The notes beneath the pieces are model-generated. The model saw only the letters and a list, made by a program, of their open reading frames with translations. It did no database searches and was not told where the DNA came from. A DNA stretch of 64,000 bases from NCBI GenBank assembly GCA_007449985.2, contig VIIQ02000737.1, positions 62,001-126,000 of the forward strand, written 5' to 3'. This document shows positions 1,565 to 43,456 of the stretch, in pieces; the stretch's first letter is position 1, and each line of letters opens with the position of its first letter. This stretch comes from Desmodesmus armatus (Eukaryota; Chlorophyta; Chlorophyceae; Sphaeropleales; Scenedesmaceae). The position numbers were made by a program, and so were the translations under genes.

Positions 1565-3808
1565 TCAGCTCTCCACGTCCATGGGGGCAGCGCCCTCTGC
1601 TCCGCCAGCTGCGTCGCCACCTGCTGCACCGCCTGCATCAGCACCACCACCACCGCCTGCTTCCTGCTCTGCTGCTGCCATGGGGGCGTCCTCTTCAGCC
1701 TTCAGCAGCTGCAGGAACAGGAACAACAATGCATAACATGCAGAGGGCAGTGGGCTCATGCACCTGCGCTGTAAGACAGCCATACCCAGCCTGGCAAGCT
1801 GTACCTTACCGGCACAGAACATGTACTGAAGCCAATTCACCCCTTCAAACATGACAGAACACCATGTAATGTGCCATGCCAGCTGACATCACAACACAAC
1901 ACTCACCGACACGTATGGCTCCACGTCATCGTCATCCAGCATCACGAAGGGTGCGCCTGCGCCCACGATTGCGATGCTGACGTTCTGCTTGGTGAGCTCC
2001 CCCTCGCTGAGTGTGGCTGCCAGGGCCTTGAGCCCGTGCTGCACCAGGTCCTCAAGGCTGGCGCTGGAGAAGGTCTCAAAGTGCTTCTCCAGGTACGTCT
2101 TGGCAGCCTGGCAAACAAGTGACAAGGAAAACAGGTGGAGGGAGAAAGGGGGGACAGAGTGAGCCAAAAGCCGGTGGGGCATGACTGTCTTGTACAGCCT
2201 GGCGGTGGGGGAGGTCTCACAGTGGTTCTCCAGGTGCGTCTTGGCAGCCTGGCGGACAAGTGACAAGGCGGACAGGTGGAGGGAGGAGGGACAGAGTGAG
2301 CCAAAAGCCCATGGGGCATGGCTGTAAGGCGGTGGGGAAAGTCTCAAAGTGCTTCTCCAGGTACGTCTTGGCAGCCTGGCGGATAAGTAACATGAAGAAC
2401 CAATGCCAGCAAAAAAGAGCGGCAGCGTGAGCGAGGGGGAAGGGGCATCATGGCTGTACAACTGGGGACGAGCTGGGCTTGCTGCAAGCACTGGATCTAC
2501 CCAAGGCAGGTAGCAGCTACTAGCTGTCGACACCTCTTGTTCAGCTGCCTGTAACTTCAAGGGCTGCATGCAGAGCGATAACCTGAGTTTGACCAGCTGG
2601 CACGCCCTTTGTTCTGAAGAACTGATCAACAGTACACACCTGTGAGCGTGCACCAATTGCCATTGCCTTGTACTCATAGTAGTTGCCGGATGGGCATGTG
2701 TTGTACAGGTGCGGGCCAGTCTTGTCGTAGCCACCGACCAGCATGCCCACACCGAAAGGCCGCTTCCAGGAGCGCTGTGTGCAGACCTGGTGCTTGTCTG
2801 CTACCTGACGCACCAGGCGGCCCACTGGCATGGGGGTCTCGTACACAAACCTGCAGGCAGCAAGAGCAATGTGAGCTGACACGCCACAGGGGATACTGCT
2901 GGCCAGCCGGCCGTCAACACCAGGGGCTGATGTCATCGGTGAAGCAGAGCAAAGAAACCTTGGGGGCACACAACTGCAACTGCTGCTCCTGTAGGAAAGC
3001 AGTGGAGGCATGGAGACTGCAGAGATACCAACAGTACATGACACAGGGAAACTGCAAGGAAACACTCATCAGCCTTACTGCCACGCAGTGACCCAGCAAA
3101 ATGCACAGCAGACACCTCTGCTGTCCAGGACGCCTCCGTGTGTGTGCCAGACAGCACCATGAACATAAAGAGCTGCTGCTGCCGCTGCTGCTACTGCAAT
3201 ACCTGTGGTTGATGCACTCGTTGCGCATGTACTTGCACAGCACACGACCGTCTGCTGTAAGTCCTGCGATGGCGATGCCCATGTGATCATCCACCTTGAA
3301 CATCTTGCGCTGGTAGGAGGACATGTCGTTCTGTGCACGCTTCAGCGTGGCCAGCACCGCATGCGTCTTGCTCTGCAGGCAAACAAGTAAACACCACCAC
3401 CAGCATGAGCACGCCGATGCTGACACTGCATGGGCTGACCACCGTTCTGTACTACAGGAGGTAGTACCTCCTTGGCTTAGGCTGCTGATGCTGCTGCGTG
3501 TATGCTGATGCGCATGCACTGTCGCATGTGCAGCAAAAACAATTGCTGTTCAGGCAACCTGGGGACTGCTGCTCCAGACAGGGAAGTTATTAGCTCACCA
3601 CAAGGCCCACTGCACAGCTGCCCTGCTTGACTGCCTCCATGGCATACTCCACTTGGAACAGGCGTCCTTGTGGACTCCATGTTGTGACATCAGTGTCATA
3701 CTGCAGCGCAAACACACCCGCATCAGCATCCCCTGAGTGACAACCTCATGCGCAGAAGCACTGTGATCAGCCAGACCACCCCACAGGCAGTACCTGATTC
3801 CGGAACAT
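1565..3808 (-). CDS. PAF1: 20S proteasome subunit alpha type-1 (alpha6, PAF1/PSMA1)
   Basis: A structural subunit of the alpha ring of the 20S proteasome, acting in cytosol and nucleus. Six exons: 3808-3794, 3700-3599, 3372-3203, 2850-2640, 2107-1907 and 1708-1565, giving 280 residues, near the family size. The start MFRNQ followed by [20 protein letters not shown] is the alpha-subunit signature that gates the pore. [34 protein letters not shown] and [19 protein letters not shown] follow in order, and they identify the alpha-1 type. The C-terminal exon adds an acidic, Gly/Ala-rich tail ending MDVES. The first coding exon is only 15 bases. Intron 4 holds tandem copies of the start of exon 5 (see repeat). 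It is head to head with the dehydrogenase gene at 4199. Confidence 0.93.
2085..2400 (-). repeat. Tandem copies of proteasome exon 5 5' edge with its acceptor
   Basis: The stretch around the exon 5 acceptor (GGCAGCCTGG core) occurs three times, starting at 2102 (the real exon), 2243 and 2370, spacing about 141 and 127 bases. Each copy keeps the acceptor AG and the codons for [12 protein letters not shown] or the variant [12 protein letters not shown]. From the second copy the frame stays open for 47 codons into the true exon, so its acceptor could give an in-frame insertion. Confidence 0.8.
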
Positions 3809-4198
3809 CCTGCCGGCCTACAGGGCACTGATCTTCGTCCCAGATATGGGTAGAGACCACTGGTCACGCTCTGGACGATGTGTGAGTTCGCTTCGCTGCT
3901 GGCTTGCAACACAAGAGGGCAGATCAAAACCTTACGCAACTGCTCTGCTGATGCCTGCACACGACCTTTGAACTAACGAGACGGCGCAACAACCACATGA
4001 ACCACTTTGCCGTTGGTGCTGCTCTGCTGTGGCAGAGTCAGACCTTGATCGAGGTTCAACGTTGACAAACTTTGGAGCACACTGACAGGCCTTTGGGAAG
4101 GACGGACAACTAGAAAGTCTGCTGTCAACGCTCATTGTCAAAGCACGTAACGCATTGTGGGCAAACCATACACAGCACAACCAACAAAGAGTGCAACC
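3809..4198. promoter_or_regulatory. Bidirectional promoter region, proteasome / acyl-CoA dehydrogenase
   Basis: These 390 bases separate the two divergent start codons and must hold both core promoters and 5' UTRs. No convincing TATA box was seen in either direction. Confidence 0.45.
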
Positions 4199-7100
4199 AT
4201 GCATTCCCTACGTGCTGCAGCCCGCATCTTGGGGCCCTCCCAGCAGTGGCTAACAGCCACATCTAGTGCTGCCAGACACATGTCCTTCGAGGCAGCAGGC
4301 GAGGACCCCTTGCTTGAGTTCAGGGAGAACGTGGGGCAGTTTGCCCAGTCAGTTATCGCACCACATGCAGAGGAGGTGGACAAAGCCAACGATTTCCCAA
4401 AATCAGTCAACCTCTGGAAAGAAATGGGAGACTTTGGACTCCTAGGTAGGCCAGCATCAGCCCTTGCTTGTGCTTTCAAATGCCACCACTCAGTCCAACC
4501 TGGCGCCAGGTCAGCATCAACTGTCGCATGGCCTGTGCAGGTATCACAGCTCCTGAGGAGTATGGAGGCCTCAACATGGGCTACAGAGCACACTGTATAG
4601 CGATGGAGGTACGATTTATTCAATTGTGATCAGCTGGTGTGCTGCTGCGAACACGCCCTCGGCACATGCTTCATATCGACTGGCAGTTGGTGTTTTAGTG
4701 GGTGGGGCAGCTGCAACAGACTGTTTACACGGGCACTATGTGATGATAACCTGATCCTCTAACGTTACAAGCAGCTTGCTGGCTGCCCCTCTCATACGGT
4801 ATGCCAAGCAGCAAATCTTTGCAGAGCCCACTCGTGCATCCCTCAATCACATGACACACACGCCCACTCTGCCAGGCCAGCCCTACACAAACGGCAGTAT
4901 CAACCCAGGTGTTGGCAGCGGCCTCACAGCATACATCATCACCTACTCACAATGCTTTGATTCTGCCACTGCATCTGCTGGCTGCCACAATGCTTTGATT
5001 CTGCCACTTGGTCTGCTGGCTGCCACAATGCTTTGATTCTGCCACTTGGTCTGCTGGCTGCCACAATGCTTTGATTCTGCCACTTGGTCTGCTGGCTGCA
5101 AAAAATCTGCTGGCTTCAGGAGCTGAGTCGTGCTTCAGGTTCAGTGGGCCTCAGCTACGGTGCCCACAGTAATCTATGTGTCAACCAGATCGTGCGCAAC
5201 GGCAACCAGCAGCAGAAGGAAAAGTACCTGCCCAAACTTATATCAGGCAAGCAAAACAGCAGGATCCTTCATAGTTTTTCAACAAGGCTGCCTTCTTGCT
5301 TCTGCCAGATGCTCGACTGCCTACTAGTGCGGAGGACTCCAACCAGTTGAAAGCAGCAGCAGAGAGATGTTGGGGCTGGTAGCAGCAGCTCGTATCAAGC
5401 TTGCAGCAGTGTGTGGACATCACCAGTTGCACCAACCTGATACTGGCAGTTGGTTTTACATGCAAGCACTTGTCATGTTGCCTGTGCTAGGCTGTATCAC
5501 TAGGCTGTACCGCTAGGCTGTACCGCCGCCCCCTGCCCCTGCTGACAGGGACACTCTCGGTTTCCCTCTTCCCCTGCCTGCTGCGGGTATCGTATGCTGC
5601 AACAAATTGTGTTTCCACAGGTGAACACATTGGGGCGCTGTCTATCAGTGAGCCGGGAGCAGGGTCTGATGCAGTCAGCATGCGCACCAGGGCTGAGCGC
5701 AAGGGGGACAGGTACATCCTCAACGGCACAAAGATGTGGTGCACAAACGGACCCAAGGTGAGGCACATGGCTGTACACTCACTAACATCACAGCGCACTA
5801 CAGTACAGTACATCACAGTACAATAAAGTACAGCACAGTTCAGTACAGCACAGCACAGTATAGTACAGTACAGTACAGTACAGTACAGTGATCGGGGACA
5901 TGGTCCTACTCCCAACAGTAGCCAGTGAGCATCGGGCACATGAGTCGTCCAGGCGCGCTTGCAGTACACAGAGGCTGACAGTCCGTCTAGGTTCGGATCA
6001 TGCCCCCCCCCCCCCCCCCCCCCCCCCCGCGCCCCCCTCGCTGTGCTGTGCTGTGCCTGGCCCTCACACCTACTCATCAACACCCCTTCTCACCCCTGTC
6101 ATCATCCCCAGGCCAGCACTGTAGTGGTGTATGCCAAGACCGCCCCTGACAAGGGTCCCCACGGCATCACTGCCTTTATCGTGGAGAAGGGCACCCAGGG
6201 TTTCAGGACTGCACAGAAGCTGGACAAGCTGGGTATGCGGGGCAGCGACACCTGCGAACTCATTTTCGAGGACTGTGAGGTGCGCACACAGAGATCATAT
6301 GCGTACATAGAGACTATGGACACTATATACTTTACAGTGAGACGGAGCACAAGCACGTCAGCGTGTGTATGTGCTTTGACACTGTGCAATGTTGTGATGT
6401 GGCTGTGCATTGTTGTGATGTGGAGCTCGCCTTTGGTGCACATGCGTGGTGTCATGGGGGACAGCCCAGCAACCAAAAGCAAGTCTTTCAGTGTGAGGAC
6501 AACGGCATGGTTGTTGCTCACGAACGAATGCCCTCTCTCACACAATGCACCTTCTCCTGTTGACCTGTTATCCAGGTGCCAGCAGAGAACGTGCTGGGTG
6601 GTGAGAACAACGGGGTGGCTGTGCTGATGAGTGGCCTTGACTATGAGCGCCTGGTGCTGGCATCAGGGCCAGTGGGGCTCATGCAGGCGGCACTGGACGT
6701 GGCGCTGCCGTACGCCACACAGCGCAAGCAGTTTGGCCAGGCCATCGGAAACTTCCAGGTGTGCTGGGGCCAGGCTGATGTCCCTGCTTGAGAGGCAGGG
6801 CAATCATGAACGTACGCGCTGTCTTGCGGTCTAGCAATTTACATGCGTCAGGAGACCATCGCCACCTCCATGCAGCCGTAACAGTTGGCATGAGTGCAGC
6901 CCAAATGTACAGGCACTATTATTATGGCCTCACGTTGTAGCAGGGACACCCTGAGGTAGTAGTGAATGCTGCCCCTTTTGCTGTTATATGCCGCAGTTGA
7001 TCCAAGGCAAGCTGGCGGACATGTACACCTCCTGCCAGGCCAGCAGGGCGTACGTGCACTGGGTGGCTACGCAGGCGGATGCAGGGCGCGCCACGCGGCA

Positions 7101-8537
7101 GGACTGTGCCAGTGTGATCCTGTACACAGCTGAGAGGGCCACGCAGGTCGCCCTGGATGCCATACAGGTCAGTCAGGGAAGTGATTGATTGTAAACACAG
7201 GGAAGTGGTTGTAAAAAATCACAAAGCGGGAGGGGACACGGGGGGTGGGGATTTGGGGGGCACAAAAGCATGCAGGTCGCCCTGGATGCCATACATGTCA
7301 GTTAAGGATGTGGTCGATGCAACCACAGCAGCGGAAGGGGACAGGTGGGAGGGGGCACACAAAAGCATGCAGGTCGCCCTGGATGCCATACAGGTCAGTC
7401 AGGAAAGCGGTTGTTGTAAACACAACAGCAGGAGGGGACACAGAGGGGTGGGCGCACAAAAGCATGCAAATTGCCCTGGATGCCATACAGGCTAGTCAGG
7501 GAAGTGGTTGACTACAATCACAACAGCGGGAGGGGACAGGCACGAGGGGGCACAAAAGCATGCAGGTCGAATGGATGGCATACATGTTGGGCAAGGGTTC
7601 AGGAATGTACGCTTACAGGTCAGCACAAGGAGGAAGATAAGGGAGATGGGAAAGGATGGCAGCGCCGTCAATGGCTGGGGCCTGTGAACATTCTGTCTTG
7701 CTGTGCGGCTACATCTGTAAGAGTAGTAGTAAGCAACGTCCAGAGCGGCAGGTGGTGGGACAGCTGGGCGCATGCAGTAATTGGATGTTCCACAGAACAT
7801 CGCCAGTTTGGGGAGCCAACAAATGGCTCATTGGGCATGCAAAGTGGTGAATCAATTGCCGGACAGGACGTGTGACAGTGCAGGCCATTTCAAGGCACAC
7901 AGTGACAGACTGTCTTCAGCGCTGCCGTTGCGGCTTGGACAGGGACATCTGGAATCACCTGCATGTTGCACGCGTGTTTCTGCTGCTGCTGCTGCTGCCG
8001 TGTCCACAGGTGCTGGGCGGCAACGGCTACGTGAATGACTACCCTACTGGCCGCATCCTGCGGGACGCTAAGCTGTACGAGATTGGAGCAGGTGTGTTGT
8101 GCAAGATGCAGCTGAATGCCTGCAGGTTGTGTTTGGAGGGAACGCGCACGTGGCGAGATTGCGCTTGGCAGCGGCAGCATGTCTGAGGTAACAGCAGCTG
8201 AGCGCTCAGGGCATTGAACTTTCGAGTACACTCCAGCTATGTCACATATGCATCAACATTGCGCACAACCTGCAGGAAAAAGGCATTACGTAGAGGCTAA
8301 GTTCTGGGAGATGTGGGTCCACCTGCTTCTCACCCCTGCATGCCCTGTTGTCTGTTGTCCCCCCCCCCCCCAAACCAGCACCACAGCAACATACACACAA
8401 GATACCCTGCAACCTTGTTGTCCATGCGCTGCCGCACCTGTTGCTGCACCTGTTGCTGTGCAGGCACCAGTGAAATCAGGCGCATGCTTATTGGCAGGGA
8501 GCTGTACAAGATGACAGAAGCATCCATGGGCAGCTGA
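4199..8537 (+). CDS. IVD: Isovaleryl-CoA dehydrogenase, mitochondrial
   Basis: A flavoenzyme of leucine breakdown: oxidises isovaleryl-CoA to 3-methylcrotonyl-CoA and passes electrons to ETF. Nine exons: 4199-4445, 4541-4608, 5120-5246, 5621-5757, 6112-6279, 6576-6758, 6997-7167, 8010-8091 and 8464-8537, giving 418 residues. The first 30 residues are basic and Ala/Ser-rich, as in a mitochondrial presequence. The FAD and substrate segments include [16 protein letters not shown] and [18 protein letters not shown]. Glu273 in [11 protein letters not shown] is in the position of the IVD catalytic base, which separates IVD from the short/medium-chain enzymes, where the base lies near the C-terminus. 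[20 protein letters not shown] and [15 protein letters not shown] close the protein. Intron 3 uses a GC donor (5247-5248). The start ATG at 4199 has a good context (CAACCATGC); translation upstream in frame would need a non-ATG start. Confidence 0.95.
4949..5110 (+). repeat. 38-base tandem repeat at the end of IVD intron 2
   Basis: Four near-identical units containing TGCTTTGATTCTGCCACTTG and ending TCTGCTGGCTGC lie directly before the acceptor. The last unit runs into TCTGCTGGCTTCAG, the true acceptor of exon 3, so the repeat appears to multiply the pre-acceptor sequence. Confidence 0.8.
5800..6028 (+). repeat. CAGTA microsatellite and C-tract in IVD intron 4
   Basis: 5800-5890 is an imperfect CAGTA/CAGCA repeat, and 6003-6028 is an almost pure C-run about 85 bases before the exon 5 acceptor. 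Confidence 0.85.
7147..7600 (+). repeat. Five tandem copies of IVD exon 7 3' edge with donor
   Basis: The last 21 bases of exon 7 (7147-7167, ending GATGCCATACAG before GTCAGT) recur at about 7276, 7373, 7470 and 7567, period 97-129 bases. The third copy keeps a perfect CAG/GTCAGT donor. The second has CAT/GTCAGT, the fourth CAG/GC, and the fifth is degraded. Between copies lies a GGGAGGGGACA-type G-rich spacer. Confidence 0.85.
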
Positions 8538-10932: not shown

Positions 10933-13900
10933 ATGCCAGTCAATGTTGGCATCATTGGTGGGGGCAATGTCGGCCAGACACTGGGCAGGCAGCTGATCAA
11001 GAAGGGCCGCACCGTACTGTATGGCTCCCGCCACCCCAGCAAGCTGCAGCAGGATCTTGCTGGCAAGGACTTGGCTGCTGAGGCGTTGCCAATCGCAGAC
11101 GCAGTCAGCAAAGCTGACATCTTGATTCTTGCTGTTCCTGGTGAGGCTGTTGAACTGGTGATCCACGCCCCGTGCTGTGCACTTGTGCTTTGAGATCCAG
11201 CAATAGGACTGTGCAGAAGCAGCATCCAGAAACCTTTGATGTGGGGGTGCTGCTCTTGTTGTTGCCGCTTGCGAGTCGTGCTGCTGCTATTGCCGGCGCC
11301 GCCATTGCTGCTGTCTGCTGCAGCCAGGCTGGCGGGATGAAGAAGCAGTAGCAACCCTGGTTGCAAGCCTTGGGCCCGCTGTTGCTGGCAAAGTGGTGGT
11401 GGATGCCACCAACCCTCTCACAGGATTCCCAGGCCTTGAGGTGCTCTGGAACGGCACATCAGGTACGCACGACCACGCCGGACAGGGTGTAGAGTTGTTG
11501 GAGGGGGGGAGGGGGGGGGGGGGGGGGAATGGCACATCAGGTACGCATGGCCACGCCAGACAAGGTACAACCGCAGTTTCAGCTATAGTATAGAGTTGTT
11601 GGGGGGGGGGGGAGAGGGTGGATGGCCGATGTTACAAGTGGATAGTTCCATTCACCAGTTGGCGGCGGTCACATTCCTTGATGAACTGGGCGGACCAAAA
11701 GGATCAACACGCGGGGGGCGGGGGGGGGGGGGGGGGCTGTTTGAAAAATAACAAGGACTGACGCATGCGGCACTACAAAGGACTGCCAGATCGGATCAAG
11801 CCTGCGCAGGTTGCCGATACCCTATGTACTTGTGCAGCAGCCAGAGAGCCATCTGTGTAGCGCATCAGCAAAGCTGTTGCTGCATGCTGCATGTTGCCGC
11901 TGCGAGCTGAGCACGGCGTGTGCGACCCCTACCGACAGAATGGTTAGTTTACCAGGCTGCCCAGCCAAGGGCGCTCCTGGAAACCAGGTTATCTGGTTTC
12001 CAGGCAGGCAGCGCCGCTACCAGGTTTTTTGAGGGCTGGAATACGGTTGAAACCCGGCTGGAGGCATGGTTTTCACGCCGGACCCGGGTGGTATGCAGCC
12101 GTGGATCCGGTTTCCGGCTGGTAATCACCCTGGTCGCGCGGCGGTTACCGGGGTGGAAACCAGGTCGCGAGCCCAGTTCCCGTCCTGAACTCTGTGTACT
12201 GGTATGTCCTGTAAATCAGACTGTTACAAAGGCGATACCCGCCTGGTAACTTGGGCACTGCTTGGGCGCTGCTTGGGCACTCTCAAGCACAACATATGCA
12301 GGGCTGCACGATGCTCCTGTCTGTTTGCCCTGTGATCACAGGACTCAGGAGCCCAACAAGGGAAGCATGCATGTAGGAGGACAACCATGACACCGCCATG
12401 AGCCCTGTCATGCGCATGAGTGCAACAGTCATGACCCTGCCTGCCACATGCAGTGTGAGGTGCAGGACATAGGTTGACACAGAGCTGGAAAAACAGTGGT
12501 CTCAACAAGCCACCATGCACCAAATAGCCAAAGGGCTACGCTTGTGCTGCCTGCAATTTGCACACTGTATGTTTTTTTGTGCCTGACCCTGCCAACACCT
12601 AGCCATACAGCCGTCACGCTGCACAGCTGACATCAAACAAAAGAACACACAACACCAGGATGCAAGCCTAGTCACACCCTTTCAAAAAGCATGGCGAAAC
12701 ATGCACACAAAACCTATGATGTTGAGATTGGTAGGCTTTCTTCTGCTGGGACATGGTCAACTCTTGGGAAGGGGGCCCGGCTCGCTACAGGGCCCGGCCA
12801 CCAGCATGCTGCTCTTGATGAGCTCCGTTGGCCGCCTGGAAAGCAGTAGGCAAGGTGGCACCATGTCAGCACATTTGTATGGTGCTTGACATTTCAAATT
12901 GTGGTGCGGCCCATCTCAATTAGAGTTGGTTGTGGACTCACACTGAAAGTACCAATAGTGGAGCTTTAGCAACAGATTGAACAGCAATTCCCGTCCTGCA
13001 TAGCAAGGGGATTGACCCCTGTGCCCAAGAGTGCAGCCTGGAAGCATTTGCAGCCGAGTTGACCTGCGCATGGGTGTGCGTCTCACCTTGTTGACATTGG
13101 GCCACTTGACGCTCAGTCAGTGAGAGGAGAGTTGCATCTGCCATGGCAGCCACAGGCTGCTCTGGCTTGGCCAGCATGGCGACCCGCATAATGTAGCAAG
13201 TGGCCAGGGGGGCCTGTCAGCACCAAAGTGGGCATGTGCTGGCAGTCAGCTGCCGTTAGTGCTGCTTCTGCTTGAGATGATGCTCTTCGCAGCAGGCTTG
13301 TGCAGTAATGTGGCTGCTGCTGAAGTGGTGCATCATCAGCAGACTTTGGAAGCACTCGTGCATCTAAGCAACTACAAGGCATGTGGCATGAGCTTTGCAG
13401 CAGAACAGATGTTGACATCCAGCTGCCTGCAACCACCAAGCTGTTTTCATCGTTGGAAGCTGTTGTAAGCTGATCTCCAAACTGCAGCATGTACTGCCAT
13501 GTATGGCCCACCTGCAATGTCTGTGGCAATCACATCACGTTGGTGCTGCTGTAGGCGCCTCGCCGTGTGGGGGATGTCTGTACTTGCCAGATGTGCCGGC
13601 ATCAGCCAAAGGGTACCAGCGGTGGGCACTGATGCTGACCATCTTGCGTGCTGATAGCCAGCTGCGCCCACAGCAGCCCCTGGTGGTGCCTGTTCTTGGC
13701 CTGAATCATACTGGGAGCTACCATTCTTCCTTACAACTTCTTGCACAGCCCCTGCAAGCAGTCGAAGGCGTATCAGTCAGCACCCTTGGTCACTTGCCAG
13801 GCACGCTGTAGTTCTTTCACATGCTGGCCTGCCATGAGTGCTCATCTCCTTGTGACTGTCCTGCAGCAGCTGTGCTGGGCGCAAGGCGTACAACATAGCA

Positions 13901-19546: not shown

Positions 19547-19668
19547 GCATGTGGCCAAGCAGGTGCTAGAGCACTGCAGGGGTTGTTTGTTGTGACTTCT
19601 TTATTTGCAGCAGCCTATTATGGCAGGTGACCATCACCCACCTGGTGGAGGACAAAAGATGCAGCGTG

Positions 19669-19673
19669 TGTAA
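19669..19673 (+). terminator. Putative poly(A) signal of PsbS-like copy 1
   Basis: TGTAA 122 bases after the stop codon. Confidence 0.5.
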
Positions 19674-28494: not shown

Positions 28495-28531
<37 letters not shown>

Positions 28532-29434: not shown

Positions 29435-29502
<68 letters not shown>

Positions 29503-32500
29503 TATTGTTATGTCAAACACCCAGGTGTGTTCAAGTACCTTCAGCAGCAGCCGGCCAAAAATGAAAAACTTTGGGCCCTGAAACAGCAGCAGCAGCAGAA
29601 GCAGAAGCAGAGGCAGTAGCCTGCATGATTGGCAAAAATCCAGGCCGCTGTAGTAACCGCTAGCAACAGCAGCCCTGACTGCACTCACTTGACCTCTTCC
29701 ACCGCAGTGACCGCCTCCTCCACATGTGAATGACAGAATGTGCCACATCCACTGCAACCCACTGCTGATCACCTCTACCATTCGCGCCCACGCACATCAC
29801 TCCTCCTTCACCCCTCTTGACCCCCCTCCTTTTCACACACATACTGGGTCCCATTCCACACCCATACACACACTTGCCCATCATCCCCCCCCCCCCCCCC
29901 CCCGCGCGCCTTGCCCTCCCCCCCCCCCCCACCCCCGCTCACACCCACACCAGCACCCACCATTGAAGGGCAGGCTGGATCATCCATGCAGGCTGTCCTG
30001 ATGCGGCTGGCTGCCCTGAAGTTGGCTGTCTTCAGGGGGTCTGACGCCACACCAAACACCCACGTATCTCCTATCTCACCTGCACGCACAACGCAACACA
30101 ACACAATAGATGGTCGATGCATTGGCTGGATGCACTCCCTGTGTCGGCAACACAATACACATGAATAGTTTGACATGATTCATGTGACATGCACAAAGGA
30201 GCAAAGCCAGGCGCATGCAAACATACAGGCTGATTTGGGGGAGCAAGACGCCACACCAAACACCCACTTATCTCCTACCTCACCTGCAGGCACACCACAG
30301 CACAACACAACACACTGCAACTTGTACTTAACGGGTGCACCTCGCGTATTCAACACACACCATGTGTATTGAACACTGTTCATGATGGATTATCCATCTG
30401 TGAAATACCCCCTGGTTCGGATGTGTGCATGATTGGAGGTTGCAGCGTCACCCCCCCCCCTTGCGCTCCCCCCCCCCCTTGCGCCCCCCCCCCCCCCCCG
30501 GCACCCCCTTGAGGACCCCTTCCACGAGACCGGTGAATCACTGACTGACTTTGCCCCCTGCCTGTGTCCCTCACCTGTGACCACTGGCAGGCTGAGTGAG
30601 GGCAGGACAGCCAACACCTCATCCACAAAGGCATCAAAGCTGCTGGCAAACACATGCACACTGCTGCCATTGCTGCTACTGCTATCAATGCTGCTGTCAC
30701 TGCTGCTGTTGTCACTGTCATCGCTGCTGCTGCTGCTGCTGCTGCTGCCAGGGTCACCGCTTTCACCACTGCTGCTGCTGCTGCTGCTGCTGGGGCTCAT
30801 CCAGTCGCGGCGCAGCAGGTCATAAATCAGCAGGGGCTCAGCCACATACTCAGGGGGGCCTGCAGGGGACACCACATGACACCAACGCACGGTCAGCAGA
30901 CCAGTCCAACGACAGAAAAAGGACGAAACAGGGGCAAGGGGGTGTGCACATGACCACCTTTGCGCCACATACTGCTACATGCAGGAAGTTACTGCTGCTG
31001 CTGCTGCTGCTGGTCGTGTCATCCCTTCACCTGAAATTGGCATTGTGCCATGAGGTGCCCCAGCATATGGAAGCGCACCCACTCAACCCCTGCATCCCTG
31101 CCCGCCCCCCCCCCCCCGCCCCCCCCCCCACACACACACAACCTGTAAGTTGCGGCTGCCCATCACACCCACGCATGCCCCACGCAATCACCCCATAGGG
31201 GGGCGCTTTCATGCCCCTCTCCCCCCTTCCCCCACCCCGCCTCACCCCCGGCCAGCACCCCCCCCCCCCCCAAACCAATCACCTGAGTTGTCGTTGCGCC
31301 ATGAGGTGCACAGCACGTGGTGTAGGCCTGGTGCCTGGATGCACTCAGCCTTAGGGTCCAGGGCCAACTCACCACGCATGCCTCCATAACCACCTGACAA
31401 AATGGGGGGTGGGGTGGGGGAGGGGGGGAGACATGTAGCATCAGTATCATTCCTGCTATTCATTGATGGTCTAGAGCCAACTCACCACGCATGCCCTCAT
31501 AGCCACCTGACAAAATGTGTGTGTGGGGGGGGGGGGGGGGGCAGGGTGGAATGGGGTGGGAGGTCCATGTGCTGGAATGCAGCACACAGTCAATCCTAGG
31601 ATATATGCTACAGCAGGCCTGCTGCATGACAGTGGCAATTCTCTGTGCCTGAGGGCTTGATTCTTCATCTGAAGGGTGCTACCTGCGCAGCATCGCATGT
31701 TGCTGCTGCTGCTGCTGCCGCTGCCGACGTCGCCACGACACCCGAAATTGGAGATCATCAGCTATGCTTTCATGGCCCACAGCTGTAACTGCCGCAGCTA
31801 CACTGAGTGTCCAGTCCTTACCTGGGTGCCAGAATTCTGATTCTTCATATGAAGGGTGCTACCTGCGCAGCATCGCATGTTGCTGCTGCTGCTGCTGCTG
31901 CTGCCGCTGCCGACGTCGCCACGACACCCAAAATTGGAGAATCATCAGCTATGCTTTCATGGCCCACAGCTGTAACTGCCGCAGCTACACTGAGTGTCCA
32001 GTCCTTACCTGGGTGCCAGAATGCCAGTATCTGTGTGCCTGAGGGTTCATCCCTCCATATGAATGGTGTGTACCAGGGCACCCCTGGTGGTGCACTGCCT
32101 GCATTCACCCCCACACTGATGGCCTTTATGCCGTGGGACACAAACACAGGGATCGACGCCCTGCTCAGGCCCGGCACGTCACGCTGCACAGCACAGCACA
32201 GCACAGCACGGCACAGCACAGCACAGCATACCACATCAGAGCGGTGTGTATGGGGGTGTGTTCCTGTGATGGCGTGGGACGCATTCCGTGTGCAAGCGCC
32301 TTAGGTCGCCATTCTGCAGTCTGCCGCCCCCCGCGCCCCACCCACCCACCCCACCCCACTCCTGCCCTGGCCAGCTCGCCGTCTGCCTCGCCCCTTCTCA
32401 CCCTGATGACGCACCCCCCCCCCCCTACCCCCACCAACACCCCAGACACCCCCCGCCCCCCGGGCGACCACCTCCCCCCCCCCCCAGCTTTGTCCCAGCA

Positions 32501-34186
32501 GTCTGCCTCATGCCTTCTCACCCTGCTGACTCACCCGACCCCCACCCCCACCCCAGACACCCCCTTTCCTGCAGGGGCCCTGCCCCCCCCCCCCCCCCCC
32601 AAACTATAGCTATGCCTCACCAGTATGGCTGTGTGCTTCCGCTGCACCGCAAACTGCTTGTCCAGCTGATGCGTCAACTCAAAGCTGAACTGCAGGAGTG
32701 ACATATCACACAGCTCGTACAGGTGGAGATGGTGTGTCTGTGCTGACACACCATCTCCACCACCAACAGTCTGCTGTGCGCCACTCCTCCTGCCTGCCCA
32801 CCCCTCCTCTCGTCCCCCCCCCCCCCCCCCCCCCCGCCCCCTGCACACTCTACTGTGCCTCACCAGTATGGCAGTGTGCTTCCGTCGCACCCCAAACCGC
32901 TTGTCCAGCTGGTGTGTCAACTCAAACTGAACTGCAAGAGGGACGTATCATACAACTCATACTGTGCGTTGTGTGGGTGAGCGTGCCATGTGATGGCCCC
33001 TGACCGCATTGCCTCCTCGACTGTCGCCTTGGTGGTGGTGTTGGGGCAGCGCAGGCCCATGCCGGGGGGGCAGTCCAGGAAGAGTGAGAGCAGGAAGGAG
33101 TGAGAGGTGTAAATGTAACGGTCACCGTGAGGGCTGACATGCTCCATCTGCTTGGCGATGGCGGCCTGCAACAGCACCGACACATGGTGCAGTACAGATG
33201 TACTTCGATGGCAGTTTGTGCTGGGGTTACCCTTGCAGTACAGGTCAGCGTGGCACAACAAGCAAGCTTACCCTTTGGTGGGCTGTGCTGCCATCTCACT
33301 GCCTACCAAAGTGAATGATGCAGTATTGTTCAAACATGAACGGAATGGTACTCCCTGGCGCGGGGACAGCGGCTGCCGCAGTGATGCGCTCTTGGCTTGT
33401 GACAAGTAGTGATTGAAGTCACGATTAAGCATGTCATATGCAGATGACTCAGCATGTGACATCATGCCAAGATGGTCGCTGATGGTCCTTCATGCCATGA
33501 TGGCCGCTGACGGCAGCTTGGCAGGTGACGGTGCAACACATGAGCATAGCTGGGTGGGTGCATCAGCTAGCATTACATGATGCTGCGGTGTTCAGGGGCT
33601 GTGGATACACTCACGGCTCGTGGGAGGTACACATTGAAGTATTTGTTGAGCACGTTGTTGTCGTATCCGATGAGGGGCTCAATGTTGTCGAACCCTGCAA
33701 CGACATGGAGTTGACGTGAAGAGATGCAACCTGTCAGTTGTGCAAGCAGCTACTGGTTTGGGATTGGCTGGCACAGTTGGTTCAGGTGATGGTGTAATGT
33801 TGCTGCTGAACGTGTCAGGACATGTCTGTACACTTCGAAGGCAGCAATTGTTGCTGTTGGGTGCATGCATCTACTGCCTTGGCCTTTCAGCCTGGGATGG
33901 CACCATGCTTCCAGCTTTCACTAATTCTTCCACTACCCTCTTCCACTCACCTATGTCCTGCCACACCAGAGGCGCAGGCATAACAAATGGCATCCATGGT
34001 CACCATATCAAGATCAGTACTGATATGTAGTAGGTTGAGGTGTATCAGCCTGGCAAGAGACACTGGATCAGCACCACCACAGAGGTGTGAGGGGTGCACG
34101 CTTACCAGGTGGTTGCCAAACACAACATGCACCGTTGTGTGTGCTGTGCACACCATCAATGCGCTGAGAAGCAGCACCAGCTGCAT
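24909..34186 (-). CDS. Secreted DUF5054 / GH38-like protein
   Basis: Likely a secreted carbohydrate-active protein; no enzyme activity is established for the family. Sixteen exons: 34186-34106, 33957-33951, 33694-33615, 33165-32864, 32183-32009, 31393-31283, 30859-30575, 30079-29961, 29297-28998, 28656-28104, 27557-27341, 26873-26807, 26578-26451, about 25961-25760, 25473-25258 and 25004-24909, about 979 residues. Residues 1-15 (MQLVLLLSALMVCTA) form a signal peptide. FGNHLDIGFD is the GH38-like metal-site motif, built across a 7-base exon. GMGLRCPN, GAITWHAHPHNA, RDVPGLSRASIPVF, VPEHTWGVD, YWCGSWRFEVDEALGAITSL and GVHFNLMNNMWGTNY follow in family order. Ser-rich (exons 7, 9, 11, 14) and Gln-rich (exon 10) inserts interrupt it. 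Exon 4 (302 bases) lacks one base near 32926. The exon 14 acceptor is uncertain. Confidence 0.78.
27024..28107 (+). repeat. Dense C-tracts in DUF5054 introns 10 and 11
   Basis: C-runs at 27045-27060, 27100-27152, 27243-27262, 27296-27310, 27824-27854, 27892-27905 and 28020-28093. On the transcribed minus strand these are G-runs, several of them starting within 50 bases of a 5' splice site (27341, 28104). Confidence 0.9.
29331..29600 (-). repeat. Two extra copies of DUF5054 exon 9 5' edge plus CAG array
   Basis: Upstream (in sense) of the true exon start at 29297, the acceptor and first about 70 bases recur at 29331-29425 and 29515-29582, encoding variants of KVPEHTWGVDI such as KVLEHTWVFDI. 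Between them lies a pure CAG array (29437-29501, about 21 units). The two extra copies carry frame or residue damage. Confidence 0.85.
30210..30300 (-). repeat. Extra copy of DUF5054 exon 8 5' edge
   Basis: A copy of the acceptor and first codons of the exon starting at 30079: GEVGDKWVFGVAS here versus GEIGDTWVFGVAS in the true exon. It keeps its acceptor AG. Confidence 0.85.
31466..31512 (-). repeat. Extra copy of DUF5054 exon 6 5' edge
   Basis: About 46 bases matching 31350-31396 with few mismatches, encoding GGYEGMRGELAL versus GGYGGMRGELAL and keeping the TTGTCAG acceptor. Confidence 0.85.
31660..32030 (-). repeat. 180-base tandem duplication across DUF5054 exon 5 donor
   Basis: Units start at about 31663 and 31843. 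Each contains the CTG/GCA run, the intron start and the exon end TTCTGGCACCCAG with donor GTAAGG (31825 and 32008). The two donors are equivalent. Confidence 0.85.
32621..32689 (-). repeat. Intact tandem copy of the end of DUF5054 exon 4
   Basis: A 69-base exon-like block with its own TGCAG acceptor and GTGAGG donor encodes FSFELTHQLDKQFAVQRKHT plus AIL. The matching end of the true exon 4 (32931-32864) encodes the same segment but is one base short. This block could be a mutually exclusive exon or a decaying duplicate. Confidence 0.75.
33951..33957 (-). other. 7-base microexon of the DUF5054 gene
   Basis: GACATAG is flanked by GTGTGGCAG and GTGAGT on the minus strand. It joins phase 0 of exon 1 (...FGNHL) to phase 1 of exon 3 (FDNIEP...) and restores the HLDIGFD motif, which neither neighbour encodes alone. 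Confidence 0.7.
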
Positions 34187-35031: not shown

Positions 35032-38000
35032 ATGCCTCTCACTCTATCTGCCCGTGTCCTGTGTTGCCTGCTGCTAGGCAAGTGTCCTACCCCATATGGT
35101 GCACTCAGTGACTTCATAGACCCAGCCACAGATCCACAATTCTGCAAGAAGGCTGTGTGTGTCGGCTCCTACACTGAGTGTTGTGGCTCAGACCCCAACA
35201 GCTGCACTGCCACCGGCTCGACAGAGCGGCTGGTAAGCAAGAGGCCTCACACACCACTGGAGGCCCGGGGGGTTCAGGCCTGTTGTGCCTCGCAACAGCA
35301 GCACAGTCAGGGGTGTACTGTACCATTCTGCTCTGTATTGTTGTGTACTGCACTTCACTGTTTCGGTGTTGACTACTGTGCTGGTTGCTGGTGCTTCAGG
35401 TGCTTGTCTTCTGACAAGTTTGGCAGCCCTGGCGCATTTACCCTCCCTCCCGTACTTTACAGTACTGTGTCGCCAGCTTTGCTATGGCTGCTGGTGCTGC
35501 AGGAGCTTGTGTTTTCTAATGGGGCACTAACCCCCTGTCCCCCCCTTCCCACAAAGCGTTTCATCATGTACCTGAGTGTACTGTGTGTCACTGGTATTTG
35601 CAGGAGCTTGTGTTCTCAGATGAGTTTGAGGGCTACTCCTCCACTGTGGGTGAGCTGGGCAGCCCTGGTGACATCCGCTGGACCTCCATGGACTACCACT
35701 ACAGCAGCGACAAAAATGAGTGGCAGAACTACAAGCCAGAACAGGTCACGGTGGAGGGGGCAGGCTACTGCTGACAATGGAGGACAAGAACAGCACAGGT
35801 GAGCTTGGGGGGGGGGGGGTGGGCACCAATTGCAGTTGGTGATATGACTGTTGGGGGGCAGAGTTCCTGCACGATATGGCCTGGACTCGAGATTAAGCTT
35901 GCGACAGCCTTGCACACCCTCACCCTGACTCCTCACCTCTTGTGTATGATGCTGAGCTTGAGTTAAAGTGGTGCAATAGGAATGACAGTCAGGTCATTGT
36001 GATGTCTGTGTGTGTTGGCTGCCTGCAGCTGTGCGCTATGGTGCAGCGGGTCCTGACTCCGTGTTTGCCAACAAGACGTCAGGCATGGTTCAGAGCTGGA
36101 ACAAGTTTTGCTTCACCGGTAAGGCACACACACCCACACATACACCCGAAACATCCAGGACCCTGCATATCTGAGTGATGCTCCCATTGTCCTTTGTCCT
36201 GGTGCGGCGCATGTCAAAGCCCTGCCACAAGTGCCACATTGTTCCAGTGCGGCGCGTGTCAAAGCCCTGTCACACGCATCAGATGTGTTTTCTCTAGCAC
36301 GCTGTTGCATTGACTCTTTGGTCTTACAGGTGGCTGCTTGGAGCATACTGAGCACCTGCTTGGTAGCCCTAGCGGACGTGGTTGCGGGGCTGCCGCTTGC
36401 ACAAAGGTTCCTGGCTTCTACCACCAGCCCATTCTATATGGTTGCAACCAATTGGTTTGAACTGTCATCATTGGACCGACTGCCCCCCCCCCCCCACGCC
36501 CTCCGACTGATCCCTGCATGCAGGTGGGTATGTGGAGTTCAATGTACGGTTGCCAGGCAAGTCCAGTGAGAGTGGCTTCTGGGCTGCTACTTGGTTGATG
36601 GGCAACCTGGGCCGTGCTGGGCACTACCCCTCTCTTGAAGGCATGTGGCCCTTCAGCTATGACGGCTGTGCCAACGGGGATGGGGCGCACTCATGGAATG
36701 ACAACAAGACACAACGCATCAGCAGGTGCTCAGCACCAAAAGGTACGTGCTGCGTGGGGACCCATTGGACTACCCAGCGCATGACGTGTGGAGCTACCAT
36801 GCTGCGGAAGATCATCCACATGTGTTTACCCCCCGCCCTCTCCAACACCACCTTCACCATTCCACAACCCACACAAATAGCGCATCGGGACCATGATGTC
36901 GCACAGTGCATTTCAAACAATCATTGTCAGAAATGCTGCATGATGCAGCAAGCTCACTCCCTCGCGCGTGTACACGTGTGCTGACTGTACAGGGCGCGGC
37001 GCACCAGAGATCGATGTCTTGGAGTATGGAAAGCTTGGCGGACCCCCCGGGCGGCCCACCTACGTCCATACCATGCAGATGGGACCTGTCATCCCTCCCT
37101 TCACTAGCTGGATCGAAGCAGACGGGCGATCGGGGCAGGGCATCAGCTTGCCGGGCCAGGCAACAACCTATGACACTCAGCTACCGAACTACCGTGGGCA
37201 GCTGAGCAGGGACGGCTTCCCAAGGACAGGTGTGCAGCAGGGGGCTGTTGGTGGCAGTTGCAGTGGCTTCCCTGGCCGTCAGCACCTTGCATGCTGCTGG
37301 GGATTTGGCGTTGGTTTCCTGAGGCAGCAAGTACCGACCCCACATGCACATTTGGTGGCAGTTGCTGCGGCTGCGAGCGGGACTTGCTGACCTGGCCGTC
37401 GTCCCATGCTGTCTCATGCTGTCATGCGGCTGCTTATGCACTGTAGGGTGCTAGCCAAGCTCGCTCTCCTCCCCAAACTCCTCCCATATTCCTTACGCAT
37501 TTCCTCTCTTACACTGTGACACACTCCCTCGCGAGCACTTGTTCCCTGTCCCCCCCCCCCCCCGGGCTCTCCCCTTCCTTTGCAGGCAGCAGCATCAAGA
37601 TCGAGTCAAGCCCGTGCAAGTTTTAGCGATTGTCAAGGCATTTGGTGTCTATGCATACCTGTGTGTCTGTGCGTGTGATTGCCCTGCAGCCAGCAGCATC
37701 ACAGACACCCTTTTCCCTAAGCACGTGCACTTGTTCCCTCCCCCCCCCCCCCCCTCACCCTGCCCCGCAGGCAGCAGCATCACGGACACCTACACAGGCA
37801 GCAGCTACCTGGATGGTGACCCATCCACCACCGACAGCTACTTCAACAACCACCACACCTACGGCCTGCTGTGGGAGCCAGGGGAGTATGTGCGCTGGTA
37901 CCTCGACGACATACTGCTGTTTGAGGTTGACAAAGTGGCGCTGCGTGCGCAGGTGGGCATGCATCCCTCCTTGCACCTATCATTGAAACTGTAGGGGGGT

Positions 38001-40195
38001 GCTGAAGTGGTCAAATTCAAAGGTGGTTTCTTGGGGGGGGGGGGGGGAGACCCAGGAAGGTGGGAGTTTGTGGGGTATGTGCGCTTGCACCTCGACAAGT
38101 TTTGACTACCTTTATGGAAGGACCGACGATGTGGCACTGCGCAAGCAGGTCGTGGGTGGGTGGGTTGTCATTGGTTCGTGCGTCCTGCAGGTGACAAAAC
38201 GTGCGATGGTCAGGGTCGGCAGTGGTTTAGGTGTATCAGGACGTCTGCAGGATGCGGCAGGTGGGGAGGTTGTGCGCGCTATACCTCAATGCCATCCTGC
38301 TGTTGGCCGAGGTTGACAAAATGGCGCTGCGCAAGCAGGCTGGCGGTCATTTGTCCCCCCCACCCCCTGTCCTGCTGCATTCTCCTGACCTTGAAGTTCC
38401 ACAAGCTGTTGTAAGATACGGGCCGTTCAGGCTGTGCATCCAGCATGCCAGCTCCCCCCCCCCCCCCCCGAGCAGGTGTTTACGTGTGCAACTGCTTTTG
38501 TGCTGCTGTGTTGGTGTGCTGCCTCTGCTGCTGTTGCTGGTGCAGTCTGCTGGTGGGCTGACAGTTGAGGAGCGGTTGATCCCCAAGGAGCCGTCATACC
38601 TGATCATGAACCTGGCCATGTCTAACAATGCATGGGCCAAGGTTGACAAAAACCTTACATACCCAGGTACGCTGGTTTGCTGCAGTCTTTCACCACCACA
38701 GAACGCTGGCATGAGGTCAGTAAGCGACCCCACCGTACTGTACTGCATGGTACTGTACTGTATTGTACTGCACTTGTACTGGAATTGCATCAACTGTTTT
38801 TGTACCATAGTACACCACAGTGTATATGTCTGCATATGTGTGCAGGTGTCATGTCTGTGGAGCATGTGCGCATCTGGCAGCGCCCGGGTCGTGTGAGTGT
38901 TGGGTGTGACACGCACGACTACCCCACCTCCCAGTACATCAGCTGCAACAGGGACTTGTACATGCCGCAGTCAGAGCAGGCCTCCTGGCAGTTTGAGTAC
39001 TGTGCTGAATTCAGAAATGTGGTGAGCAGGGGTGCTGATGTCATGCTGACGTGCTGGTGCTGTCTATAGTGTTTTCCTTGCTGCCGTTACGGGAGACACA
39101 TCTTCCAGCAGCAAAGCCAACATCTGCCAGATGCCGTAGGTCCACATGGTGGTGTGCATTGGGGCAGCTGCTTCCAGGTGGTTGGACTGTGCTGGACGAC
39201 AGTCCTTTCTACACATGCTCCCACCATTGCTGGCTTGTATACCTGCAATTGCCCGCGTCCTATCCACGCTCCATTGCCTGCTTACCCGCCTTCCTGTGCA
39301 CCTGCAGGAGAACCAGTTCCTCCTGGGGCTTGGTGTGAGCTGTGCCGCTGTGCTGGCTGTAGCTACTGTGCTGATGCTGTGCATGCGGCGGGCCTTTCAG
39401 CAGGAGCGGCAGGTGCAGGACCAGGTGGGGGCTCTTTGTGCAAGCGATTTGTTACAAATGCGTATAATCAGATGACCAAAATTAGGCCTGAATATATTTG
39501 ACGCTGACAACCTTCTGCAAGGCTCTGCGATGCTGCCTGTGGGGCAGGACTGGAGACGGTTGTTTGATTCAGACAAGACGTGATGCCTTTCTGCCCTGTT
39601 TTCAGCGCTTGACTTGCACATGCTCGCTTCTGTGTGCCTCAATTCACACACCAACAGGTGCCACTCAGTGTGATCCTGGCGCTGTTACGGACCTGTATGG
39701 GGCGGCTCAGATTTGTGGAGTACCTTCCGTAACTTTGACTGTCATGTGTGTGCAGGTGGGGCGCAACCTGCCTGCGGGCATCACCGCTGCACGGACGCTG
39801 CCCCAGGAGAAGATACGGGGCTGCTACATCAACAAGGGGGGACCTGAGCTGCAAGAAGCGCTGAGGTACACACGGCCAGGTGAGGGTTGGGGGCCTGCTG
39901 CTGGCATCTAATGGGGGCCCTGCGCCGTACGGACGGGGGGAACATTGCTGTGATCTGTTTTAAGTTGAGTCGAGGCTGAGCTCAGCAGCTGCTCAAGCTC
40001 GACCTGTGTGATCAGCACAGGTCAGCTGTGGTGATCAGGGGCCATGGAGGGGTCTCTGTGTGTCTGCAGTCTGATCAGACACCTGAAAGAACACCATACA
40101 GTGAATGCATACCTGACAAGGATTTATGTTTTGTGCTTGCAGATCTCATCGCTGCTGCTGAGGCAGCAGTTGCTGAAACAAAGACGAAGAAATGA
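35032..40195 (+). CDS. GH16 beta-glucan synthesis-associated protein (KRE6/SKN1-like)
   Basis: Family members act in the secretory pathway on beta-glucan of the cell wall. Eleven exons: 35032-35232, 35604-35798, 36029-36118, 36524-36742, 36993-37229, 37771-37952, 38546-38666, 38846-39021, 39308-39424, 39756-39879 and 40143-40195, about 571 residues. It starts with a hydrophobic MPLTLSARVLCCLLLG, then a Cys-rich segment and LVFSDEFEG. FANKTSGMVQSWNKFCFTGG and GFWAATWLMGNLGRAGHYPS are typical. The GH16 catalytic motif is E241-I-D243-V-L-E246 (APEIDVLEYG). A transmembrane helix (about 478-498, FLLGLGVSCAAVLAVATVLM) and a charged cytosolic tail end it. Unlike yeast Kre6, the membrane anchor is C-terminal. 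Exon 2 is one base short in the G-run 35756-35760. An upstream noncoding exon is possible. Confidence 0.82.
35341..35640 (+). repeat. Three tandem copies of GH16 exon 2 5' edge
   Basis: The acceptor plus ELVFS codons occur at about 35400 (decayed), 35503 and 35604 (true exon), spacing about 102 bases. The second copy reads ELVFSNG, then diverges. Confidence 0.8.
37580..37800 (+). repeat. Three tandem copies of GH16 exon 6 5' edge
   Basis: Acceptor plus GGCAGCAGCATCA occurs at about 37585, 37687 and 37771 (true exon). The first two are followed by unrelated codons and C-runs. Confidence 0.8.
37925..38345 (+). repeat. Three copies of GH16 exon 6 3' edge with donor
   Basis: The exon end (GAGGTTGACAAAGTGGCGCT, then GCAG before GT) is echoed at about 38129-38151 and 38309-38338, spacing about 190 bases. 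The first copy keeps CAG/GTCGTG; the last has lost GT. Confidence 0.75.
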
Positions 40196-40332
40196 TGAGA
40201 TGAAAGCCTCCCTCCTCAGCTGTGGGCATGCAGTTTGCTGGTTTGCAATTGAGAGTTACTTGTTGTGGAAAACAGTTGAGGTTTGCACCGTGGCTGAAAC
40301 ACGCCACCGATGTGTCGAGTGGTCGATGTACT

Positions 40333-40389
40333 TGTAATACCCTGTACAGATCGCAGTCGCTGCTTGCAGTGCACAGTGCTGCAGTGTAA
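40333..40389 (+). terminator. Putative poly(A) signals of the GH16 gene
   Basis: TGTAA at 40333-40337 and 40385-40389. The next start codon is at 40421, so the two genes nearly abut. Confidence 0.5.
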
Positions 40390-40420
40390 TATCTACTTAG
40401 TATGTACTAACCCAGCGACT

Positions 40421-43400: not shown

Positions 43401-43456
43401 CCCCTGCAGTTGCAGCACCATCAGGGACGACACTGATGGATGAGCAAGCTGGCTGA
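40421..43456 (+). CDS. Unrecognised protein with AGF/AGY motifs
   Basis: Eight exons: 40421-40501, 40570-40755, 40853-40911, 41060-41117, 41376-41501, 41990-42162, 42554-43010 and 43199-43456, all in phase, giving 465 residues. The N-terminal third is helical, with a Lys/Ala-rich stretch (KQAKGKQKAAGKAAAAKK) that could be a nuclear signal. The middle carries repeated short motifs DAGFTAGQLLRAGYSAAEV, KAAGYTAAAV and LAGFPVSTV, each a helix-turn unit of the AGF type seen in some bacterial and algal repeat proteins. A Gln-rich segment and a helix (YFRHQIVALMHMKAEQDVAQ) follow, then a low-complexity tail. Function unknown. Only about 200 bases separate it from each neighbour. Confidence 0.7.
41795..41835 (+). 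repeat. Degenerate copy of exon 6 5' edge, AGF gene
   Basis: CTTGCAGGCGCCAGAGGCAC resembles the true acceptor region at 41985-42005 (CTGCAGGAACCAGAGGCAAG). The resemblance extends about 35 bases. Confidence 0.55.
42336..42470 (+). repeat. 49-base tandem repeat in intron 6, AGF gene
   Basis: Three units containing CTAGTGATAACAGCTGGGCT, nearly identical to each other. Confidence 0.9.

Follow-up and report, generated by a model that had tools for sequence, protein, structure and literature searches.

Repeated sequence in and around introns has been described in several forms. Intronic minisatellites are arrays of diverged units lying head to tail within introns, tandem duplication of exons, including mutually exclusive exons, is a known class, and introner elements are inserted sequences of a dispersed family that enlarge introns or make new ones. 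Here we analysed a 64,000-nucleotide stretch of the green alga Desmodesmus armatus (contig VIIQ02000737.1, positions 62,001 to 126,000; hereafter the window, numbered from its first base), in which the edges of exons, together with their splice sites, are copied into the flanking introns. These copies resemble intronic minisatellites in forming arrays, but 55 of the 83 clusters of duplication detected consist of a single pair, and many units start in an exon. One duplication, at 32610-32962, is akin to tandem exon duplication, as it comprises a whole exon and both splice sites, whereas most copies are partial and, when pooled, lack coding constraint. Unlike introner elements, the copies that were tested (an array in the IVD gene and a duplicate in the sampled stretch L017) are local, single-locus sequences rather than a dispersed family. 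Collectively, the data indicated that the phenomenon is genuine and recurs throughout the sample, and that most of it can probably be attributed to local duplication at random positions together with selection.

The nearest single case is found in potato. There, a tandem duplication across an intron-exon boundary of the RdRp gene copied the splice site and its signals, producing a new intron and an inserted exon confirmed by RNA reads, while a second, 83-base duplication within an intron left the gene structure unchanged (Ma et al. 2016, PMC4974935). The likeness to Desmodesmus is a boundary-crossing duplication that carries a splice site; the difference is that the algal copies lie dead in a pre-existing intron. 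Small tandem duplications are generated in mammalian cells by the repair of staggered breaks with fill-in synthesis; these are local copies in direct orientation, as in the alga, although they are insertions of less than 100 bases in mammalian cells, against a spacing of 53-664 bases in our sample (Schimmel et al. 2021, PMC8355091). Such duplications are marked by a requirement for Pol alpha-primase, CST and end joining, and by microhomology or filler where units join; in the alga, decay has blurred the breakpoints. Duplication of AGGT segments appears as a route of intron gain in a review (PMC3443670). Judged from titles and the openings of abstracts, no genome-wide survey of exon-edge copies in introns was among the open-licence papers listed by our searches. 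Schimmel and colleagues cite a 2014 study of rice by Vaughn and Bennetzen.

The window (C704:62001-126000 of an assembly of 115.8 Mb in 831 contigs) was scanned with a further 200.5 kb from the assembly, giving 264.5 kb in total. The sampled stretches, labelled with L numbers, were chosen by contig number and place, and 100.5 kb come from contigs shorter than 110 kb; L023-L027 (16.8 kb), selected for proteasome exons, were kept out of the statistics and are given separately. Exon models came from a hidden Markov model gene finder seeded with the exon coordinates of the IVD and proteasome genes and self-trained on the 264.5 kb. GT or GC donors and AG acceptors were imposed, and the signals learned were a TGCAG-type acceptor and a GTGAG-type donor. 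An exon was considered confident with a coding score of at least 6, a length of at least 45 bases and less than 40% simple repeat, and a cluster was taken to span a junction when it covered at least 8 bases on either side of a confident junction. Each cluster was counted once; the junction counts are probably slightly inflated, as the gene finder seems to take some copies for exons, among them one in the CAP gene at about -2309 to -2256 in window numbering.

With thresholds of at least 40 bits and a distance of at most 700 bases, the 264.5 kb contained 169 direct pairs in 83 clusters. An inverted scan with matching limits returned 20 pairs, made up of 19 single palindromes and one spaced repeat. 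The numbers of direct and spaced inverted pairs (169 vs 1) indicated that direct local copying genuinely takes place here and does so often. The near absence of spaced inverted copies ruled out templated insertion with strand switching, and the single-locus result for both duplicates tested spoke against a mobile element as the source of the copies. A unit of about 50-190 bases, as given in a preliminary description of the window, proved too narrow: the spacing ranged from 53 to 664 bases (cut-off 700), with 102 of the 169 pairs at 100-299. The one spaced inverted repeat that the sample contained within these limits, at window 773-812/993-1032 (40 bases, 92.5%), lies inside a predicted intron and perhaps represents the ends of a small element.

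Clusters were found over splice junctions more often than expected from rigid random placement, with 40 of 83 spanning a confident junction against 23.7±3.7. Spanning clusters accounted for 16 of 26 in the window and its 30 kb flanks and for 24 of 57 elsewhere. Among the 72 genic clusters, 40 spanned a junction and 54 touched an exon; when only tolerable genic clusters were considered, in which coding sequence is mostly spared, 36 of 55 spanned a junction, a count that none of 400 trials of random placement reached (18.6±3.0). Duplicated stretches covered 54 of 541 junctions (10.0%), 9 of 158 intron midpoints (5.7%), 20 of 316 intron quarter points, 13 of 259 exon midpoints (5.0%) and 82 of 1125 intergenic points (7.3%). 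By both the placement and the point-coverage nulls, an edge preference within genes was present. This preference was not visible among pairs of at least 92% identity, which covered 13 of the 541 junctions, 7 of the 259 exon midpoints and 60 of the 1125 intergenic points.

Duplications are visible only if tolerated by selection, and an excess at exon edges therefore need not mean targeting. In a simulation, tandem duplications were placed at random along successive exons and introns of the observed lengths; those that were wholly intronic, straddled a single junction or included a whole exon were kept, and the same detection search was applied to them after decay; unit lengths were the observed spacings and units were assumed to abut. 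With equal decay rates, the spanning share was 57-60% without large insertions and deletions (indels) and 55% with them. The observed shares were compatible with this model: in binomial tests, the genic clusters (40 of 72) gave p=0.81 against 0.57, and the tolerable ones (36 of 55) gave p=0.22. Targeting is thus not required if decay rates are equal; should introns evolve two or three times faster, an excess of spanning clusters would remain. The copying had been described as a genome-wide habit of exon edges. Its spread is supported by the 24 of 57 spanning clusters outside the window and its flanks, but a special edge habit was not established: the comparison with random placement gave an excess, and the equal-rate neutral simulation gave 55-60%, in line with the observed share.

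The duplications in the window are given below by coordinates, strand and content; the last three are controls that include no exon edge.

2055..2400, minus strand: proteasome alpha subunit, three-unit array, the unit being the 5' edge of exon 1907-2107 with acceptor and intron; living acceptor edge 2107, copies about 2248 and 2375
7140..7587, plus strand: IVD, 3' edge of exon 6997-7167 with donor, repeated into the intron; living donor 7167, copies 7296, 7393 and 7490, the last with GC, not GT
11448..11566, plus strand: F420-type oxidoreductase, 3' edge of exon 11324-11462 with donor, single copy, donor copy 11540
21487..21728, minus strand: GnTI, intron 21429-21597 holding a 92-base decayed copy (72%) of exon interior 21634-21728
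25395..25637, minus strand: predicted gene in the GnTI/DUF5054 stretch, 78-base duplication with copies in exon 25258-25592 and across its predicted acceptor
29216..29580, minus strand: DUF5054, 5' edge of exon 28998-29297 with acceptor, decayed copies about 29414 and 29577
30043..30310, minus strand: DUF5054, acceptor-side edge 30043-30106, copy 30247-30310
31355..31515, minus strand: DUF5054, acceptor-side edge (27 exon bases), one copy, with GG where the living site has AG
31658..32022, minus strand: DUF5054, abutting tandem duplication of 95% identity that includes the donor edge of exon 32009-32183
32610..32962, minus strand: DUF5054, whole exon 32621-32689 with both splice sites, copy 32853-32962 (86%)
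35374..35628, plus strand: GH16/SKN1, acceptor-side edge (35579-35628) of exon 35604-35771, decayed copy 35374-35422
37532..37790, plus strand: GH16/SKN1, acceptor-side edge of exon 37771-37952, upstream copies 37532-37597 and 37681-37709
37881..38371, plus strand: GH16/SKN1, 3' edge of exon 37771-37952 (72 exon bases), copy 38263-38339 (77%)
4948..5099, plus strand: intron-only tandem array, 38-base unit
16844..17364, no strand: intergenic tandem duplication, 259-base unit, 98% identity
42326..42469, plus strand: intron-only tandem array, 49-base unit in three copies

Self-comparison of the window (E<=1e-3) gave 23 local direct repeat pairs. Of 13 sites put forward in the preliminary description as exon-edge copies, 12 are real duplications, and 11 of these include or adjoin an exon edge. 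The GnTI duplication derives from 36-130 bases inside the exon, not from its edge (p=0.002; 44.6 bits). At 41795 in the AGF gene (plus strand), the best match, between intron 41789-41858 and acceptor edge 41972-42043, was not significant (p=0.06). The site at 32621-32689 is a genuine duplication, of the whole exon rather than its edge alone, and the duplication at 25395-25637 had not been listed. The exon-edge setting is not exclusive, as the intronic and intergenic controls indicate. Two of the edges call for caution: the DUF5054 edge at 30079 depends on a weakly scored exon (5.2), and the GH16 duplication at 35374-35628 rests on a single test with p=0.002, which is the floor of that test and is uncorrected for seven tests. 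The other GH16 pairs (37532-37597 vs 37724-37782 and 37881-37953 vs 38263-38339) were found in the self-comparison, the latter reaching 38371 with looser scoring; its copy has GC where the living donor has GT. The donor copy of the abutting DUF5054 duplication, at 31822, is intact. The F420-type unit runs on into a poly-G tract, and the pair reads as tandem by eye.

The spliced genes of the window have relatives in green algae. Pfam matches were obtained for acyl-CoA dehydrogenase, F420_oxidored, GNT-I, DUF5054 and SKN1/KRE6-GH16 (the GH16 gene matching SKN1_KRE6_Sbg1), and PF00227 matched at C704:64634-64855 and 65154-65384, which are two other exons of the proteasome gene. The best named matches of the IVD protein were 'Chrzof1' (82%), a label that we take to be Chromochloris, and volvocine and Scenedesmus proteins (74-77%). 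The IVD array occurs once in the assembly, and the proteins of six relatives are continuous across the IVD junction without the copy.

The same arrangement was observed in the neighbouring CAP (cyclase-associated protein) gene, at C704 window positions -3846 to -221 (L002), which contains four multi-copy exon-edge arrays. Head-to-tail arrays are visible in this gene and look tandem by eye; two of the arrays have five detected donor copies apiece, and every one of these retains GTGAG or GTAAG. The CAP protein matched that of Tetradesmus obliquus with 73% identity over half of the query, and proteins of five relatives read across the CAP junctions without a copy. As the IVD and CAP comparisons use other species, they indicate the ancestral state and not present splicing. 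Among five proteasome loci fetched by family, local duplications were confined to L024, which contains five of them. Predicted junctions (acceptor 2043, donors 2183 and 2761) are spanned by three, the others are set 12 and 5 bases into an exon, and two of the three exons concerned are matched by the proteasome Pfam family.

The intronic copies showed the marks of decay. By codon position (first, second, third), mismatches between exon and intronic copy amounted to 7.9, 8.8 and 16.1%, and in pairs of exons, pooled over the sample, to 5.3, 5.0 and 13.7%; the window's stretch alone gave flatter values in two classes (9.8/12.4/15.7% and 6.3/10.4/14.5%). Near-equal values at the first two positions are expected of a dead copy facing a constrained exon, and a doubling at the third is expected from synonymous change in the exon. 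Indels in exon-intron pairs were multiples of three in 7 of 44 cases and out of frame in 37, and their density per 100 columns was 1.1 in exon-derived and 2.85 in intron-intron alignments; in these codon and indel statistics, pairs within an array are non-independent and indels were not de-duplicated between pairs. Coding constraint on both copies was therefore not seen in exon-intron pairs, where 37 of 44 indels break the frame and positions 1 and 2 differ by 8-9%. Taken together, the intronic copies are dead, in agreement with the decay first described. The living splice dinucleotide was matched by 41 of 49 donor and 35 of 39 acceptor copies, where neutral decay expects 37.2 and 30.2. Selection on the copied sites was set aside, as retention is only slightly above neutral. 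The copies might, as first suggested, multiply alternative splice sites, but proteins of relatives join the IVD and CAP exons without them. Identities between exon and copy ranged from about 70 to 98%, and it is plausible that duplication is ongoing in this genome.

We therefore favour, with a confidence somewhat above even, an explanation of the exon-edge copies by random local direct duplication filtered by selection. Local direct duplications, many of them tandem and with copies mostly 100-300 bases apart, would arise frequently at positions governed by mutation and not by splicing. Those internal to an exon would usually break the protein and be lost, and those internal to an intron would be harmless. 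Provided that splicing continues at the junction beside the exon body, a duplication straddling a junction would be harmless as well, since the extra copy joins the intron. Introns are about 250 bases long and exons about 140, and straddling cases would thus be expected to form about half of the genic survivors, or more. The intronic copy would then decay neutrally while the exon remains constrained; exon-derived parts would stay recognisable longest, which is why a reader notices exon-edge copies. Repeated rounds would build arrays and lengthen existing introns.

Several results weigh against this explanation. When introns were made to decay two or three times faster than a dead exon copy, the simulated spanning share fell to 45% or 35%, below the observed 56-65%, because the intron part drops out of the alignment, and exon-touching cases rose to 81-84%. 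Real copies are indeed less similar on the intron side (0.698) than on the exon side (0.828). The exon share is also short: more than 75 exon bases were copied at 4 of 40 junctions, where 34% were expected (binomial p=0.0005; Kolmogorov-Smirnov (KS) p=0.007; L009 and L017 omitted). Coverage peaked within 30 bases of the exon end, reaching 13.0 and 13.9% at donors and 12.9 and 12.5% at acceptors, and dropped to 5-8% at 30-60 intron bases; no simulation gave an equally sharp peak on the exon side, and the fast-intron run reproduced the dip, not the exon slope. Finally, many pairs are spaced: among single-pair clusters, 52 of 55 align over less than 0.9 of their spacing and 3 over at least 0.9, whereas the simulations yield 31-84% nearly full-length pairs, and hidden tandem homology (p<=0.05) was detected in just 19 of the 52 remaining spacers, with 5.1 expected. 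If short, spaced copying were the true event, rigid placement would be the right null and spanning would be in excess of it. In 54 of 88 copies, related sequence extends into the intron side beyond the 95% null, and the spaced look of the pairs is partly due to decay and masked simple repeat.

Alternatively, duplication might be aimed at exon-intron borders by a transcription- or splicing-linked lesion or a chromatin border, with 20-75 exon bases and the splice site copied into the intron. The excess of spanning clusters over rigid placement, the higher coverage of junctions than of intron and exon midpoints, the coverage peak at the exon edge, the short exon parts and the lower spanning share in fast-intron simulations all favour it, as does L024, where each of five copies spans an exon edge or lies no more than 12 bases from one, while its four sister loci have none. 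However, the equal-rate simulation matches the spanning fraction as it is, and intergenic coverage exceeds that of intron midpoints. Among pairs of at least 92% identity, junctions are no more covered than exon midpoints and less than intergenic points. Moreover, clusters per gene are not over-dispersed (p=0.20); junctions per gene are (p=0.0002), because several junctions are counted per array. The junctions themselves come from a gene finder that at times calls copies exons. The verdict between random and targeted duplication hinges on intron turnover, and this tempers our confidence in random duplication with selection in favour of border targeting, which we regard as unlikely while taking it seriously. 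Selection might instead keep the copies, as decoy splice sites or as edges of alternative or poison exons. Splice dinucleotides are intact in 76 of 88 copies (67.4 expected), the donor copies of the two CAP arrays all keep their signal, and copies resemble each other more in exon-derived (0.827) than in intron-derived parts (0.683; 45 copy pairs, L017 omitted), with a third-position excess in their differences. Serial duplication from a living edge also predicts such an excess, and the codon bias was not accepted as proof of function; the comparison is biased, copies being found largely via their exon part. In exon-derived columns, divergence at codon positions 1 and 2 is about 0.6 times that of intron columns from the same kind of pairs, which is not below the neutral half, most indels break the frame of the exon-derived parts, and the relatives' proteins lack the copies. 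Maintenance by selection is accordingly quite improbable.

Some cases could be protein-internal repeats, that is, duplicated exons with both copies coding, or missed exons. Exon-exon pairs diverge in a coding manner and exon-heavy clusters abound in L006, L009 and L017, but when these three stretches are left out a junction is still spanned in 27 of the 44 tolerable clusters within genes, and we give this account very little weight. Assembly artefacts hardly come into question: clusters are denser in small contigs (4.68 per 10 kb in contigs below 110 kb vs 2.20 in contigs above 250 kb), but an assembly duplicate would hardly show the divergence of about 5-28% measured for exon-edge copies of the window, whose intron sequence is also distinct. 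The IVD array has a single place in the assembly, and junction-spanning copies also occur in contigs of 0.7-1.6 Mb (L019, L021, L024).

Duplication of AGGT segments had been proposed as a route of both intron gain and intron growth. Among 172 introns with confident exons on both sides, none showed in-register likeness of the donor and acceptor surroundings above the 99.9% null, and intron gain by duplication was not supported. Out of register, 5 of the 172 were alike against 0.17 expected, the strongest case lying in the L017 repeat array. The potato gene did gain an intron by tandem duplication across a junction (PMC4974935); here, the copies inspected lengthen introns already present between conserved coding exons, and the creation of introns by this route is very improbable indeed. 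Growth of existing introns has the better support. The introns tested comprise 56,067 bases, of which 4,200 belong to duplicated copies, and introns with duplicated stretches had a median of 348 bases (n=28) against 277 (n=144) for those without, a difference that was not significant (p=0.14).

As regards the lesion, the likeliest candidate, by analogy with the mammalian system, is a staggered break or gap close to a low-complexity tract that would be repaired by fill-in synthesis and end joining. Simple repeats occur in duplicated stretches about twice as often as in matched stretches: of 68 clusters, 27 contained G8/C8 runs (12.8±3.2 expected), 22 triplet runs (10.2) and 26 dinucleotide runs (11.1), the three patterns overlapping. 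A special role of G/C runs was dropped, as other simple repeats are likewise enriched, and the runs were not significantly placed within spacers (KS p=0.10, 86 non-independent placements). As a separate observation, runs of at least 8 G or C are about seven times denser in predicted introns than between genes (16.2 vs 2.2 bases per kb, and 0.3 in exons), and on the sense strand of introns G runs outnumber C runs (108 vs 55).

This sample puts a number on local duplication over splice junctions in one genome, namely 54 of 541 predicted junctions. With compact introns, random duplication and purifying selection predict that between a third and 60% of surviving genic duplications span a junction, depending on the rate of intron decay, and this null sets the bar for claims of splice-directed duplication or of intron gain driven by duplication. 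If borders were targeted, about one junction in ten would carry a spare site, a mutational source for alternative splicing and intron growth across genes in general; should the short exon share and the coverage peak hold in the full genome, the process would be of wider interest. The spare splice sites, most of them intact, provide a natural experiment on how the spliceosome chooses between near-identical neighbours, and annotation calls for caution, as some copies were taken for exons.

Two further observations concern the window. The spacer of the DUF5054 duplication at 30043-30310 contains, at about 30110-30145, a dispersed motif of some 34 bases, GGTYGATGCATTGGCTGGATGCACTCCCTGTGTC. Genome-wide, the 24-base core of this motif was counted 433 times with at most 2 mismatches, a reversed control giving 0, and window 30040-30320 matched elsewhere via this motif in the 40 places scored of 379 candidates. 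The motif is also present at L011:6485-6516, L011:1530-1566, L020:1451-1506 and L026:2922-2958; of four annotated copies, three lie in predicted introns and one runs from an intron into a predicted exon, and their flanks are unrelated. Predicted chlorophyll-binding-like proteins with long identical stretches are encoded at 17880-19803 and at 63725-64000, the latter continuing into L003. One of these genes is on the plus strand and further predicted copies are on the minus strand at the right end of the window, apparently reflecting a local inverted gene duplication.

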